Source: Gracilibacteraceae bacterium (GTDB lineage Bacteria; Bacillota; Desulfitobacteriia; Desulfitobacteriales; Syntrophobotulaceae). From it: DNA of 63,357 nucleotides. The position numbers and the translations under genes are program-made. How positions within the stretch are numbered: position 1 is the first letter of the stretch; each line of letters begins with the position of its first letter. Shown one piece after another: positions 726 through 4,619 of this stretch. Under the pieces are notes generated by a model, which saw nothing but the letters and a program-made list of their open reading frames with translations, made no database searches and was not told the DNA's origin. The stretch covers positions 1-63,357 of the forward strand of contig JAISAH010000119.1 in the NCBI GenBank assembly GCA_031266805.1, given 5' to 3'.

Positions 726-754
726 TTGACAGACGCGGCCCCGCCGTGTAAAAT
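726..754 (+). promoter_or_regulatory. Sigma-A-type promoter of the dual-ATPase cassette
   Basis: TTGACA at 726-731, a 17-bp spacer and TAAAAT at 749-754 make a near-consensus promoter, leaving a leader of about 130 bases before the ATG at 895. The 15-mer TAGTTTTTTGCTTGA at 715-729 overlaps the -35 box and is identical to the one at the antitoxin promoter. Nothing else recognisable lies in 659-894. Confidence 0.75.
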
Positions 755-894: not shown

Positions 895-1683
895 ATGGAT
901 TACGAAAATCTTTACGCATCGTATGCCGAACGAAACGCCGTGATAAAAAGCAGGCTCGCCGTTTTCCAGAACGCCTGGAAGCGTCTGGCGGCCAAAATGG
1001 AAAAAGGCGATCTCAAGAACGCCGGCAAAGATATCGCCGCGATGGAGGAAGCGCATGGGGCGCTGGCTGACGCGACGGCGGCCGCGCGCGAGACCGTGTC
1101 CGCGTTCGACTATGCCGAATATATGGCGTCAGGGGAGTTCACGCGCCAGTTTCTGGCCTGCTGCGAGACGGAAGGGCTGGATGTGCGCGGCGAAAAACAG
1201 ACATACGAGATATTTCCTTACCGAATCCGTATGGACGCCGAAAACTGTGACGTTTTCATTGATCGGCGCAAAGCCGCTTCTTTCCGCCCCAAAAAACTCG
1301 CTTCCGTCGTCAGGAAAAGCAGGGACAAGCTGTTTAGCGCCGCTTTCGACCCCCAGCGCTTCGCTTCCGAGCTGGCGGCCGCTTACGATCTGTGCATTTT
1401 GCGTCACGGCAGTGAAAAAACCGTCGCTGCGGGGGCGGATGTTTTCTTGAGGGATCTGTACGCTTATCTGACGCCGATGCAGCGCTTCCGGCAGGAGTAT
1501 ACGCGGCAGACCTACGCTTTTGATCTGGCGCGCCTGTTCATGGTCCCGGACGCCGTCACCGCTGACGACCGCCGTTACCAGTTCGGGCCGAGCCGCTACA
1601 GCAGCAAATCCATCCGCATTACCGACCGGGAAGGCAACGAGCATTTTCTGGCCACCATACGTTTTTTCGCCAATGAGGAATAA
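895..1683 (+). CDS. Unknown protein, first gene of the dual BrxD-like ATPase cassette
   Basis: A 262-residue soluble protein that I do not recognise. The first 90 or so residues are strongly helical and charged (YASYAERNAVIKSRLAVF onward), likely a helical bundle or coiled coil. The rest is mixed alpha/beta with several Arg-Lys-rich stretches, such as RPKKLASVVRKSRDK near residue 130. No signal peptide, membrane segment or catalytic motif is evident. The ATG at 895 follows AAAGAGG at a good distance. It ends 5 bases before the ATG of the first ATPase and shares its promoter, so it is probably a subunit or adaptor of the same machine. A nucleic-acid-binding or substrate-recognition role is a guess from position and charge. 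Confidence 0.75.
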   Translation: MDYENLYASYAERNAVIKSRLAVFQNAWKRLAAKMEKGDLKNAGKDIAAMEEAHGALADATAAARETVSAFDYAEYMASGEFTRQFLACCETEGLDVRGEKQTYEIFPYRIRMDAENCDVFIDRRKAASFRPKKLASVVRKSRDKLFSAAFDPQRFASELAAAYDLCILRHGSEKTVAAGADVFLRDLYAYLTPMQRFRQEYTRQTYAFDLARLFMVPDAVTADDRRYQFGPSRYSSKSIRITDREGNEHFLATIRFFANEE

Positions 1684-1688
1684 TATTG

Positions 1689-2909
1689 ATGGACGCTGAT
1701 CTGGCCGCCGGTCTGCCGCCGGCGGACGACGCCCTTCTGGCCGAACTGTCGGTCGGCGTCGATTTTATCACCGATTTTTGGTTGGAGCAATACCTCGACC
1801 GTTATATTTTCTTGGGCGGCAGCAAGATAAAATTCATCGTCGGCGACGCGGGCAGCGGCAAATCCCACTGTCTGCGTCTCTTTTTGGCCGGAGCGGCCCA
1901 GCGCCATTATAAGACGGCGCTTCTTTCCGCTAAAACGGTCTGGATCCACGACTTCAAGGAGCTGTACGCCGCGATCTTGCCGGCGGCGGATTTGCCGGGC
2001 AGTTTAGCCGCTTACGCCGATACGGTCATACGGGAAATGGGCTACGCGCCGGAGGATTTCACCCCGGGCGAGACTTTTGCCGATTACCTCTCGCGGAGCG
2101 GACAGTTCACTCCGCTGGCGCGGCGGGAGATTCGCGCTCAAATTGAAAATTTCTTCCTGAAAAATCCCCGGATCGACAATAACTTCGCTCTGGCCTGCAC
2201 CATTTTGACCGGCGGGATCCTCGGCTATCCGATCCTGGAAGCGCAAAACCGTTCTTTGCTGCTGGACTGGCTTGCCGGGGCCAAAGGCGTCCGGGTGGCG
2301 CCGCTCCGCAAACTGGGGCTGTCGCCGAGCCGGATCACCAAATACAACGCTAGGCATATGCTGCGCTCGCTGGTGGAAGTGCTGCGCCTTACCGGCACGC
2401 CCGGACTGGTCGTGGGGATCGACGATCTGGACGTCCTCGCCGGCGCCTCTAGGCTGGAAAGCCTGCATTACACCAAATTGCGGCGCGAGGACGCTTACGA
2501 GAGCATTCGCGAACTGATTGACGATATAGATACCATGTCTCACCTGATGATGGTTTTTTCTTTCGACCGCCGTCTGCTGGACGACGAGCGCGCCGGTCTC
2601 AAATCTTATCAGGCCCTGTGGATGCGGATCCAAAACGAGATAGACAGCGACTGTTTTAACCGTTTTGCCGACATCATCGACATGGATCGGCTGGCGAAGT
2701 TCGTCTACACGCCGGAAACTCTGGCCGAGATCTCGCGCCGTCTGGCCCTTCACGCCGAAGCGGCCGGGCTCGCCTCACACCCGATCGACGCCGCGACCGC
2801 CGCCGCCCTCAAAGTGAGCGATTCCATCGAAGCTTACGCTCTGCCGCGAAAAATCAACCGTCTCACGCTGGGAAAAGAGCAAAGAGCGGAAGGAGAGTCT
2901 AATGGCTGA
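1689..2909 (+). CDS. P-loop ATPase related to BREX BrxD-type ATPases (first of pair)
   Basis: About 406 residues. The Walker A motif GDAGSGKS lies near residues 52-59. A hydrophobic strand ending in acidic residues (GLVVGIDDLD, about residue 240) looks like Walker B. Later, FSFDRRLLDDERAGLKSY followed by ALWMRI resembles the sensor and post-sensor region of BREX-type DUF2791 ATPases. The ATG at 1689 follows GAGGAA at 1675-1680; an in-frame TTG at 1686 is less likely. The gene sits between the unknown 262-residue protein and the second ATPase, overlapping the latter by 8 bases. The two ATPases share architecture but little sequence, so a hetero-oligomeric AAA-like machine is plausible. Its substrate is unknown. 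Confidence 0.75.
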   Translation: MDADLAAGLPPADDALLAELSVGVDFITDFWLEQYLDRYIFLGGSKIKFIVGDAGSGKSHCLRLFLAGAAQRHYKTALLSAKTVWIHDFKELYAAILPAADLPGSLAAYADTVIREMGYAPEDFTPGETFADYLSRSGQFTPLARREIRAQIENFFLKNPRIDNNFALACTILTGGILGYPILEAQNRSLLLDWLAGAKGVRVAPLRKLGLSPSRITKYNARHMLRSLVEVLRLTGTPGLVVGIDDLDVLAGASRLESLHYTKLRREDAYESIRELIDDIDTMSHLMMVFSFDRRLLDDERAGLKSYQALWMRIQNEIDSDCFNRFADIIDMDRLAKFVYTPETLAEISRRLALHAEAAGLASHPIDAATAAALKVSDSIEAYALPRKINRLTLGKEQRAEGESNG

Positions 2910-4101
2910 TTTTAACGCGCGGCGCGTCGTAGAAGCTCTGCGTTCCGGCGTCGCCTCCAGAGAGGCGGGCCGCTGTCTTTCCTCCGCGCGGCCCCGGCTG
3001 CTGCGCTCTTTGGACGAAATGCTGGAACAGGCGGCTGAAACCCGCGGCAGTTCCGGCATGATCATTTCGGGCAAGTACGGCGAGGGGAAAACTCATCTGC
3101 TCAACACGGTCGTCAGTATGGCCGGTGAAAAAAATATGGCGGTCAGCCTTGTCACTCTCAGCAAGGAAACGCCGATGAACAAGTTCCATCTGCTTTATCA
3201 GAAAATCGTGCAGGCCACATATCTGCCCGGCCGCGCCCAGCCCGGTTTCGCGAGCGTTTTGAGCGATTTGACCGCCGGCCGCGCCACTGCCGCCTCTTTG
3301 TCGGAATACGCGCTGACCGCCTTGGAGACGGATAAACTTTATTATTTGCTCAAATCGTATCTCGGCTGCGGCGATGAGGAAGAAAAATTCCTTTTGTTGT
3401 CTGATCTGGAAGGGGATTTCATCACCAACGCCGCTCTGAAAGCCGCTTTTAAACGCATCCACAATGAAACGGCCGCTTTCCGCATCCCGTTTGTCAAAAC
3501 GCAGCACTCGCTTGATTATCTGCGTTTTCTCAGCCGCCTGTTTTTGGAGACGGGCTGCCGGGGGTGGGTGATTTTGTTTGACGAAACCGAACTAATCGGT
3601 CGCATGGGGAAAAAAGCGCGGCTGAACGCTTACGCCAATATGGCGCGTTTTCTGAATCCCGACCGTCTGGAAGCGGTGTGTTCCATTTTCGCTTTTAATT
3701 CCTCCTATATTCCCGATGTGATAGAGGCGAAGCATGAATTCGCCAACCTTGATGAAGCCGACTTGCCGCCGGAAACCCGCGAGGCGGTCGCCGGGGTTTT
3801 GAACGGGATATTGGCGGCGCCCCAGCTCGCGCCGCTGGGACAGAGCGAAATACTGGATATCCTGCGGCAGATCCTGGAATTCCATGGCGCCGCTTATGAG
3901 TGGACTCCGGCGATCACCGCCGAAGAACTGCTGGCCGCCTGCGAAAAACGCGGGTATCTCCTGCGCACCAAGATCCGCGCCGCCATAGAACTGCTGGATC
4001 AGCTGTACCAATACGGCGAGGTTCGGAATATCCATGTCAACGAATTGGGCCGGCTGACTTTTGAGGAAGACCTCCCTTCGCTGGATGAACTGCTTAATTA
4101 G
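2902..4101 (+). CDS. BrxD-family (DUF2791) P-loop ATP-binding protein
   Basis: A 399-residue protein with the layout of BREX system ATP-binding proteins of the DUF2791 family. The N-terminal VVEALRSGVASREA helix is followed by Walker A GKYGEGKT at residues 57-64. Next come the family-typical VSLVTLSKETPMNKFHLLY strand-loop and a Walker B-like WVILFDETELIG near residue 225. In true BREX loci BrxD stands beside brxA/B/C, pglZ and a methylase or helicase, and none of those is present here. The start ATG overlaps the preceding gene and follows AAGGAG. The protein probably couples ATP hydrolysis to remodelling of a partner or DNA. A phage-defence role is possible but not shown. Confidence 0.8.
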   Translation: MADFNARRVVEALRSGVASREAGRCLSSARPRLLRSLDEMLEQAAETRGSSGMIISGKYGEGKTHLLNTVVSMAGEKNMAVSLVTLSKETPMNKFHLLYQKIVQATYLPGRAQPGFASVLSDLTAGRATAASLSEYALTALETDKLYYLLKSYLGCGDEEEKFLLLSDLEGDFITNAALKAAFKRIHNETAAFRIPFVKTQHSLDYLRFLSRLFLETGCRGWVILFDETELIGRMGKKARLNAYANMARFLNPDRLEAVCSIFAFNSSYIPDVIEAKHEFANLDEADLPPETREAVAGVLNGILAAPQLAPLGQSEILDILRQILEFHGAAYEWTPAITAEELLAACEKRGYLLRTKIRAAIELLDQLYQYGEVRNIHVNELGRLTFEEDLPSLDELLN

Positions 4102-4112
4102 CTGGAGGCGGC

Positions 4113-4619
4113 ATGGCTGAATCGATAAGTTCTTTTTTAGCGCAGTACGCCTCTCCTCCCGTGACCGTGTTTCTCATCTCCATGCTTCCGGTTCTGGAAC
4201 TGCGCGGCGGCATGATCGCCGCGGCGCTTTTGGGTCTGCCTTGGGAACAGGCGCTGCTCATATCCCTCTTGGGCAATATGCTGCCCGTGCCGTTCATCAT
4301 TCTGTTTATCCGGCGGATACTTGAGTTGCTCCGCCGGGGCGGGCCGCTCCGTTCTTTGGCCCTGTGGCTGGAAACCAAGGGGACTGCCGGCGGCGCCCGT
4401 TTGCAGGAGCGCTATCCCCGCAGTCTGTGGCTGGGACTCCTTTTGTTTGTGGCCGTGCCGCTGCCGGGCACGGGGGCGTGGACCGGCGCCCTGATTGCCG
4501 CCCTCTTGGGTTTGCGGCCCTATAAAAGCGCTCTCGCGATTTGTCTGGGTGTTACGGGCGCCGCCGGCGTGATGCTGATTTTGACCTACGGGCTGCCGGC
4601 GCTGACGCGTTTGATTTAG
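4113..4619 (+). CDS. Small multidrug export family (PF06695) membrane protein
   Basis: A 168-residue integral membrane protein with about four or five hydrophobic segments. The family signature is clear at the N-terminus: MLPVLELRGGMIAAALLG, then a glycine-proline-rich LLGNMLPVPFII stretch, and later GTGAWTGALIAALLG. Despite the family name, its members have no well-established transport substrate, and the fold resembles SNARE-associated (DedA-like) membrane proteins. It begins 11 bases after the ATPase cassette with a GGAGG site and may be read through from it, but nothing links it functionally to the ATPases. Confidence 0.85.
   Translation: MAESISSFLAQYASPPVTVFLISMLPVLELRGGMIAAALLGLPWEQALLISLLGNMLPVPFIILFIRRILELLRRGGPLRSLALWLETKGTAGGARLQERYPRSLWLGLLLFVAVPLPGTGAWTGALIAALLGLRPYKSALAICLGVTGAAGVMLILTYGLPALTRLI

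Follow-up and report, generated by a model that had tools for sequence, protein, structure and literature searches.

A two-ATPase gene core with a predicted winged-helix-like protein, normally linked to an SF2 helicase, in a Gracilibacteraceae genome: a candidate defence-like system

Results

We analysed a 63,357-nucleotide stretch of DNA from a Gracilibacteraceae bacterium (contig JAISAH010000119.1 of assembly GCA_031266805.1, here called the window), which makes up the whole of contig C50 in a 152-contig draft genome (95% complete), and in which positions 895-4101 carry a cassette of three genes that we call U, A and B. Comparison with relatives indicates that the cassette is the core of what is normally a four-gene unit, its fourth member being a superfamily 2 (SF2) helicase, and we put at roughly one in two the probability that 895-4101 is the U-A-B core of a defence-like system in which that helicase is loaded on foreign DNA; we infer both the loading and the defence.

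Relatives were fetched with B as the query, and the best 80 of 142 confirmed loci make up the named relatives described here, most of them from metagenome-assembled genomes (MAGs). Clustering of these relatives placed four families at one place, namely U, A, B and an SF2 helicase of about 530 amino acids, and gene content over the 80 loci was then recounted by tblastn. U, A and B were all present in 74 loci, in the order U-A-B and tightly spaced in most, while of the six others four end at a contig edge and two (L048 and L060) are without U. The helicase adjoins the cassette in 67 of the 74 complete loci (L026, which has a break of unknown bases beside the helicase, being counted as linked), lying upstream and divergent in 52, upstream in the same direction in 14 and downstream in one. 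Cultured carriers of a complete four-gene locus include Candidatus Formimonas warabiya DCMF (L037) and Blautia schinkii DSM 10518 (L054). Judged by this gene content, the normal unit is a conserved set of four genes, U-A-B plus the SF2 helicase, and A and B form an obligate pair. The original prediction, which was made from the window's letters, had proposed a minimal three-gene machine, and this does not agree with a fourth gene in so many loci; it had also named the contrary case, that the homologues belong to a larger system decayed here, and since the helicase adjoins 67 of the 74 loci it is largely this that was found. Locus L048 (88-4126) has the helicase with a shortened A and B and is apparently a decaying copy.

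The usual helicase has ResIII and Helicase_C domains and, in the two examples scanned with Pfam, only helicase-type and ATPase domains. Its nearest PADLOC model is the helicase part of PbeA (E 1e-56 to 1e-60 in the four loci scanned), and SngC is not among the best 25 of the 29 to 32 PADLOC matches of those four helicases. Seven of the 74 loci have no adjacent helicase, one of which (L065) has just 3 bases of contig left there. In the genome of another, L092, a helicase free of inner stops is found on a separate contig, and the 9 kb read there contain no U, A or B, so a helicase can be unlinked from its cassette.

A more distant version was found on the Desulfomonile tiedjei plasmid pDESTI.01, where a 279-amino-acid protein, two BREX-type ATPases and a 701-amino-acid DEAD helicase stand in a row. 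The 279-amino-acid protein matches the U profile with a probability of 91.9% (E 7e-7, for that one pair), the two ATPases correspond to A and B, in that order, and the helicase gives matches to BrxHI (4e-87) and SngC (8e-74). Because the same order is kept with a different helicase, U-A-B may be regarded as a portable core whose partner SF2 helicases are interchangeable; on this comparison the U-A-B order outlasts its helicase partner. The Desulfomonile locus (L106:1-9170) lies near ParA and AbiEi-type genes.

The two ATPases of the window, A (1689-2909, forward strand, 406 amino acids from an ATG, a TTG at 1686 also being possible) and B (2902-4101, forward strand, 399 amino acids, overlapping A by 8 bases), are both P-loop ATPases of the BrxC/BrxD type, and together with U they confirm the three open reading frames (ORFs) first proposed. 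Both match Pfam PF10923 (BrxC_BrxD; E 1.3e-23 for A and 1.4e-23 for B), PADLOC BrxD (6.9e-17 and 7.2e-16) and PADLOC SngB (1.2e-10 and 1.4e-10). The two score 62.0 and 56.8 bits against the NCBI BrxD equivalog, whose cut-off is 350 bits, so their predicted BrxD type stands at the level of PF10923 and falls far short of that cut-off. The distinct Walker A motifs that had been noted in these adjacent ATPases are present as described, GDAGSGKS in A (1842-1865) and GKYGEGKT in B (3070-3093), and are near invariant across 58 A proteins (those matches covering 90% of the query, the remainder having been dropped) and 81 B proteins. Walker B differs between the two families: it is D-E in all 81 B proteins (canonical ILFDE in the window) and D-D or D-N in 57 of the 58 A proteins (in the window it ends D-D, not D-E). 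As a general rule this asymmetry is ruled out by the Desulfomonile pair, in which both ATPases have D-E.

U (895-1683, forward strand, 262 amino acids) had been called unrecognised, and rightly so, as no family in Pfam, NCBIfam, PADLOC (E <= 1) or PHROGs matches it. It is defined here by its ORF, a 73-row family alignment with 15 invariant columns, AlphaFold2 (AF2) models and fold comparison; Pfam over the 73 U proteins gave scattered matches only, each in one or two members, and no convincing relative of U, A or B emerged from sequence searches of the PDB. The predicted layout is a helical hairpin (residues 3-69), an alpha/beta middle (72-149) and a winged-helix-like C-terminal domain (150-261; positions 1342-1677, forward strand). 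Helical hairpins dominated the fold search with the whole model (mean predicted local distance difference test score, pLDDT, 89.7), and the C-terminal part was therefore modelled separately (pLDDT 85.3); its elements run as helices 153-172, 185-192 and 204-215, followed by strands. VIA-align gave weak matches of this model to the human OCCM chain 8s0e_A (ORC1; Z 7.0, under Z 8, root-mean-square deviation (rmsd) 3.2, 78 residues aligned), the condensin core chain 7qen_C (Z 6.5, rmsd 3.5, 87 aligned) and Cdt1 2zxx_F (Z 5.2, rmsd 3.3, 79 aligned). Weak as they are, these matches are worth noting because ORC1, condensin and Cdt1 agree on one family type, and the C-terminal domain of U may be said to resemble weakly, as modelled, the winged helices of ORC (the origin recognition complex) and Cdt1. 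TerB folds are not among the U fold matches listed, which excludes nothing.

In the window, positions 1-894, where relatives have the divergent SF2 helicase, gave no meaningful helicase match or remnant by tblastn and hmmsearch with helicase queries. The genome has one helicase homologue, unlinked, on contig C76 (L098:7247-8778), whose best match among those compared is in the same-genus genome G067 (58%). It lies in two reading frames, and the break removes about five residues in the region of D387, E388 and G389, which are invariant in the helicase family; either decay or misassembly may explain the frameshift. The homologue sits between a weakly IS200-like (Y1) transposase ORF and, directly after it, an ORF that we take to be priA.

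The closest relative of the cassette is L014, from a Gracilibacteraceae MAG, in which B is 73% identical and there is no adjacent helicase; no helicase was found in the genome of L014, nor in that of the same-genus genome G066. U, A and B are 68-73% identical to the L014 copies, with non-synonymous and synonymous divergence (dN / dS) of 0.21 / 0.97 for U, 0.19 / 0.95 for A and 0.17 / 1.00 for B, a ratio of about 0.2. This conservation with dN well below dS shows that all three genes are real and still under purifying selection. The window thus holds a split copy, U-A-B without the helicase of its relatives, which would be either recently orphaned or working with another helicase.

Two further loci of the same genome deserve mention. 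A second pair, A'-B', lies on contig C129 (L099; about 59% identical), a 3.7-kb contig that is cut inside A'; because the pair groups with the Peptococcaceae MAG L016 and not with the window, it was either acquired separately or sits on a stray contig. A single PglZ (863 amino acids) was found in the genome, near the end of contig C47 (L129:9131-11722), and its place suggests a separate, cut-off BREX-like locus. The view that no other BREX gene is present is accordingly correct for those genes near the cassette that were read (no search was made for BrxC or PglX/BrxX) and fails for the genome, which has this PglZ on another contig.

Across the class the cassette is patchy. In a survey of 82 genomes, of which the 54 best were counted separately, B was found in 11 (two as fragments) and in 4 of the best 54; the counts were 9 for U and 12 for the helicase. 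U accompanies B in each of the 9 genomes where B is full length, and 7 of the 9 have the helicase beside U on the same contig. Two genomes hold remnants with stops: in G040 only helicase and B pieces are left, with the inside missing, the helicase C-terminus directly abutting the B pieces (L131, G040:C40, 6144-7171) and U, A and the rest gone, and in G012 only the end of B is left. In a tree of B (82 rows) the window and L014 group together, the eight Spirochaetota rows make up a single clade, and one Synergistota and one Actinomycetota MAG row fall inside the Bacillota with starred support; as most rows are MAGs, mis-binning is possible.

No family beyond the core four is common to many loci. 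The next clusters comprise 15 and 12 loci, the former at least partly ORFs on the strand opposite the core genes; constant housekeeping neighbours, named beforehand as a finding that would count against a defence role, are therefore not seen. Neighbours were scanned with PADLOC at E <= 1e-15 (143 of 219 eligible proteins, taking at most the two nearest per side and lengths of 130 to 899 amino acids, and counting families rather than proteins), and 71 families were matched, including Wadjet JetA and JetD, AbiLi, AbiEii and PtuB, compared to 6 families among 99 control proteins drawn from parts of three genomes of the same order and from the window from 6 kb on. This enrichment of defence genes among the neighbours is suggestive, not conclusive. 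Pfam on the same neighbours showed mixed metabolism.

The tight spacing of U, A and B fits one operon. One good promoter-like site, TTGACA-17-TAAAAT (726-754, forward strand; 11 of 12 matches in a consensus scan), lies upstream of the cassette, for which a single promoter had been proposed; the four such sites in the region as a whole are no excess over the 2.7 found in shuffles. Only 12 bases past B, a gene for a small multidrug-export-like membrane protein begins (4113-4619, forward strand; PF06695, Pfam E 1.2e-35), and the operon may continue into it. The exporter gene also directly follows B in L014 (4491-4997; 80% identity between the copies) and is outside the conserved core. Translations of L014 4742-5101 and 6944-7168 suggest that an exporter fragment is repeated there beyond a 559-amino-acid gene, as if duplicated or rearranged. 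Upstream of the cassette, a 93-amino-acid ORF (253-534) and an overlapping 44-amino-acid ORF from 524 (region 253-658) had been taken for a decayed toxin-antitoxin pair; neither has a meaningful Pfam match, and we do not retain that assignment.

Discussion

Several known systems share parts with this unit. In one article (PMC12839542), BrxD is classed as an ORC-Cdc6 AAA+ ATPase without added DNA-binding domains, with an insert after strand 2 and an arginine finger, and is proposed to load BrxHI; a preprint on YprA-family helicases yielded no passage on BrxHI or BrxD. Like the BrxD-BrxHI dyad of Type-2 BREX, the unit tightly links BrxD-type ATPases to an SF2 helicase, for which helicase loading is proposed, and the Desulfomonile version even has a helicase of the BrxHI/SngC type. 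Unlike the dyad, it has two divergent ATPases rather than one, both far below the NCBI BrxD cut-off, together with the additional protein U and a usual helicase that is ResIII/PbeA-like; unlike BREX as a whole, its locus in the window has no PglZ, the one found being on C47. Shango, reported as antiphage in Pseudomonas (PMC10250203), consists of a TerB-like protein, an ATPase and a helicase, and is similar in its few-gene layout, its helicase and its ATPase (the SngB-like matches at E 1e-10). It has a single SngB, whereas here there are two ATPases, U has no SngA match and the helicase (four loci scanned) is closest to PbeA; for these reasons we did not assign the unit to Shango. A search of the genome for SngA gave no match, although the same search also matched no control genome.

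What the unit shares with PbeABCD and the CxC ABC-ATPase systems is the helicase, which aligns to that portion of PbeA. PbeA has an HKD nuclease part (PMC10853773), which is missing here, as the helicase starts at PbeA position ~250, and the ATPases are of the BrxD type. There is also a likeness to replicative helicase loading by ORC, Cdc6 and Cdt1, in that heteromeric AAA+ ATPases, a winged helix and a separate helicase come together, and ORC/Cdc6-type Walker A and Walker B motifs are present (Walker B being D-E in B and D-D or D-N in A), so that they may work alike; the differences are that the winged helix is in a separate protein, the helicase is SF2 and not MCM, and the fold similarity is weak. 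No description of the U-A-B-helicase set was found in the literature searched, as far as its text was accessible. By the features compared, the unit appears to be neither BREX nor Shango and, by its distribution, not ordinary housekeeping.

The original prediction that the two ATPases form a hetero-complex to which the third protein gives specificity is reasonable, since Walker B differs systematically between A and B and a winged helix is predicted in U, and the three keep a fixed order in 74 of the 80 loci. We propose that A and B would assemble into a ring, or part of one, of mixed ATPases of the ORC/Cdc6 type, in which B would hydrolyse ATP while A, because its Walker B is without the usual glutamate, would mainly bind ATP or hydrolyse it slowly. 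U could dimerise or dock by its helical hairpin and bridge the A-B complex to DNA by its winged helix, and the whole complex would then place or activate the helicase on invading DNA, which would be unwound or blocked. As no gene of the four looks like a nuclease, the block would probably be by remodelling, or by host nucleases afterwards. Such a loader acting on foreign DNA fits loci that are patchy, decaying and rich in defence genes.

Several results weigh against this loader on foreign DNA. The winged-helix match is weak: the structure search of U, which had been recommended as a check, gave a best Z of 7.0, below the level that VIA-align calls safe, and Foldseek with the C-terminal model gave nothing below E 0.78; other folds also match, the first half of that model resembling frataxin (Z 5.8). 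The Desulfomonile pair breaks the Walker B asymmetry on which the division of labour between A and B is based. L014, L059, L077, L079, L082 and L092 are U-A-B loci with sequence present at the helicase position and no adjacent helicase. The control for the neighbour scan was small (99 proteins) and drawn from other genomes. Phage records searched with A, and viral contigs searched with B and with the U alignment, yielded no relative, and a plasmid search with B gave one match only.

Three other explanations were weighed. It is possible, though improbable to our minds, that U-A-B and the helicase are a housekeeping or repair machine that restarts forks or remodels the cell's own DNA, unrelated to defence: the parts resemble replication factors (the ORC/Cdt1-like winged helix), the genome's own helicase fragment lies directly before the presumed priA, and the neighbours checked in the window encode a transporter-like protein and one that binds the cell wall. 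Such a machine sits poorly with B being present in just 11 of the 82 class genomes and 4 of the best 54, with the stop-containing fragments in G012 and G040, and with loci where nothing but the four genes recurs constantly and where defence genes lie nearby. We give about the same low weight to U-A-B being complete as three genes, as first proposed, and either borrowing a helicase from the host or blocking DNA by itself. The six helicase-less loci speak for it, as does the dN/dS of about 0.2 between two helicase-less copies, but the helicase is kept by the large majority of loci, the L092 genome has an uninterrupted helicase elsewhere, so that separation need not mean loss, and in mostly draft MAGs a helicase may be missed.

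Slightly less likely again is that the window copy is a relic, a cassette that lost its helicase and is itself being lost. The one helicase homologue of the genome is split over two frames, with about five residues missing at invariant motif positions, and G040 and G012 show that remnants with internal losses occur; against this, the window has three full-length ORFs with conserved motifs and dN well below dS compared to L014, misassembly could account for the C76 frameshift, and unassembled gaps between the 152 contigs may hide a helicase.

The unit is of interest for its ATPases. BrxD-type ATPases occur in both BREX and Shango, where their role is unsettled, and here, in a simple system that recurs across loci, an obligate BrxD-like pair occurs apart from methylation and PglZ and is linked to a single DNA-binding-like protein and a single helicase. 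As that helicase is swapped between lineages, the proposal that BrxD loads a helicase becomes testable with four proteins. More tentatively, U-A-B may be a bacterial 'mini-ORC', in which one active and one regulatory ATPase, with a winged helix supplied in trans by U, would load interchangeable SF2 helicases on invaders; if true, this would be a defence built on the licensing logic of replication origins, with no nuclease of its own.

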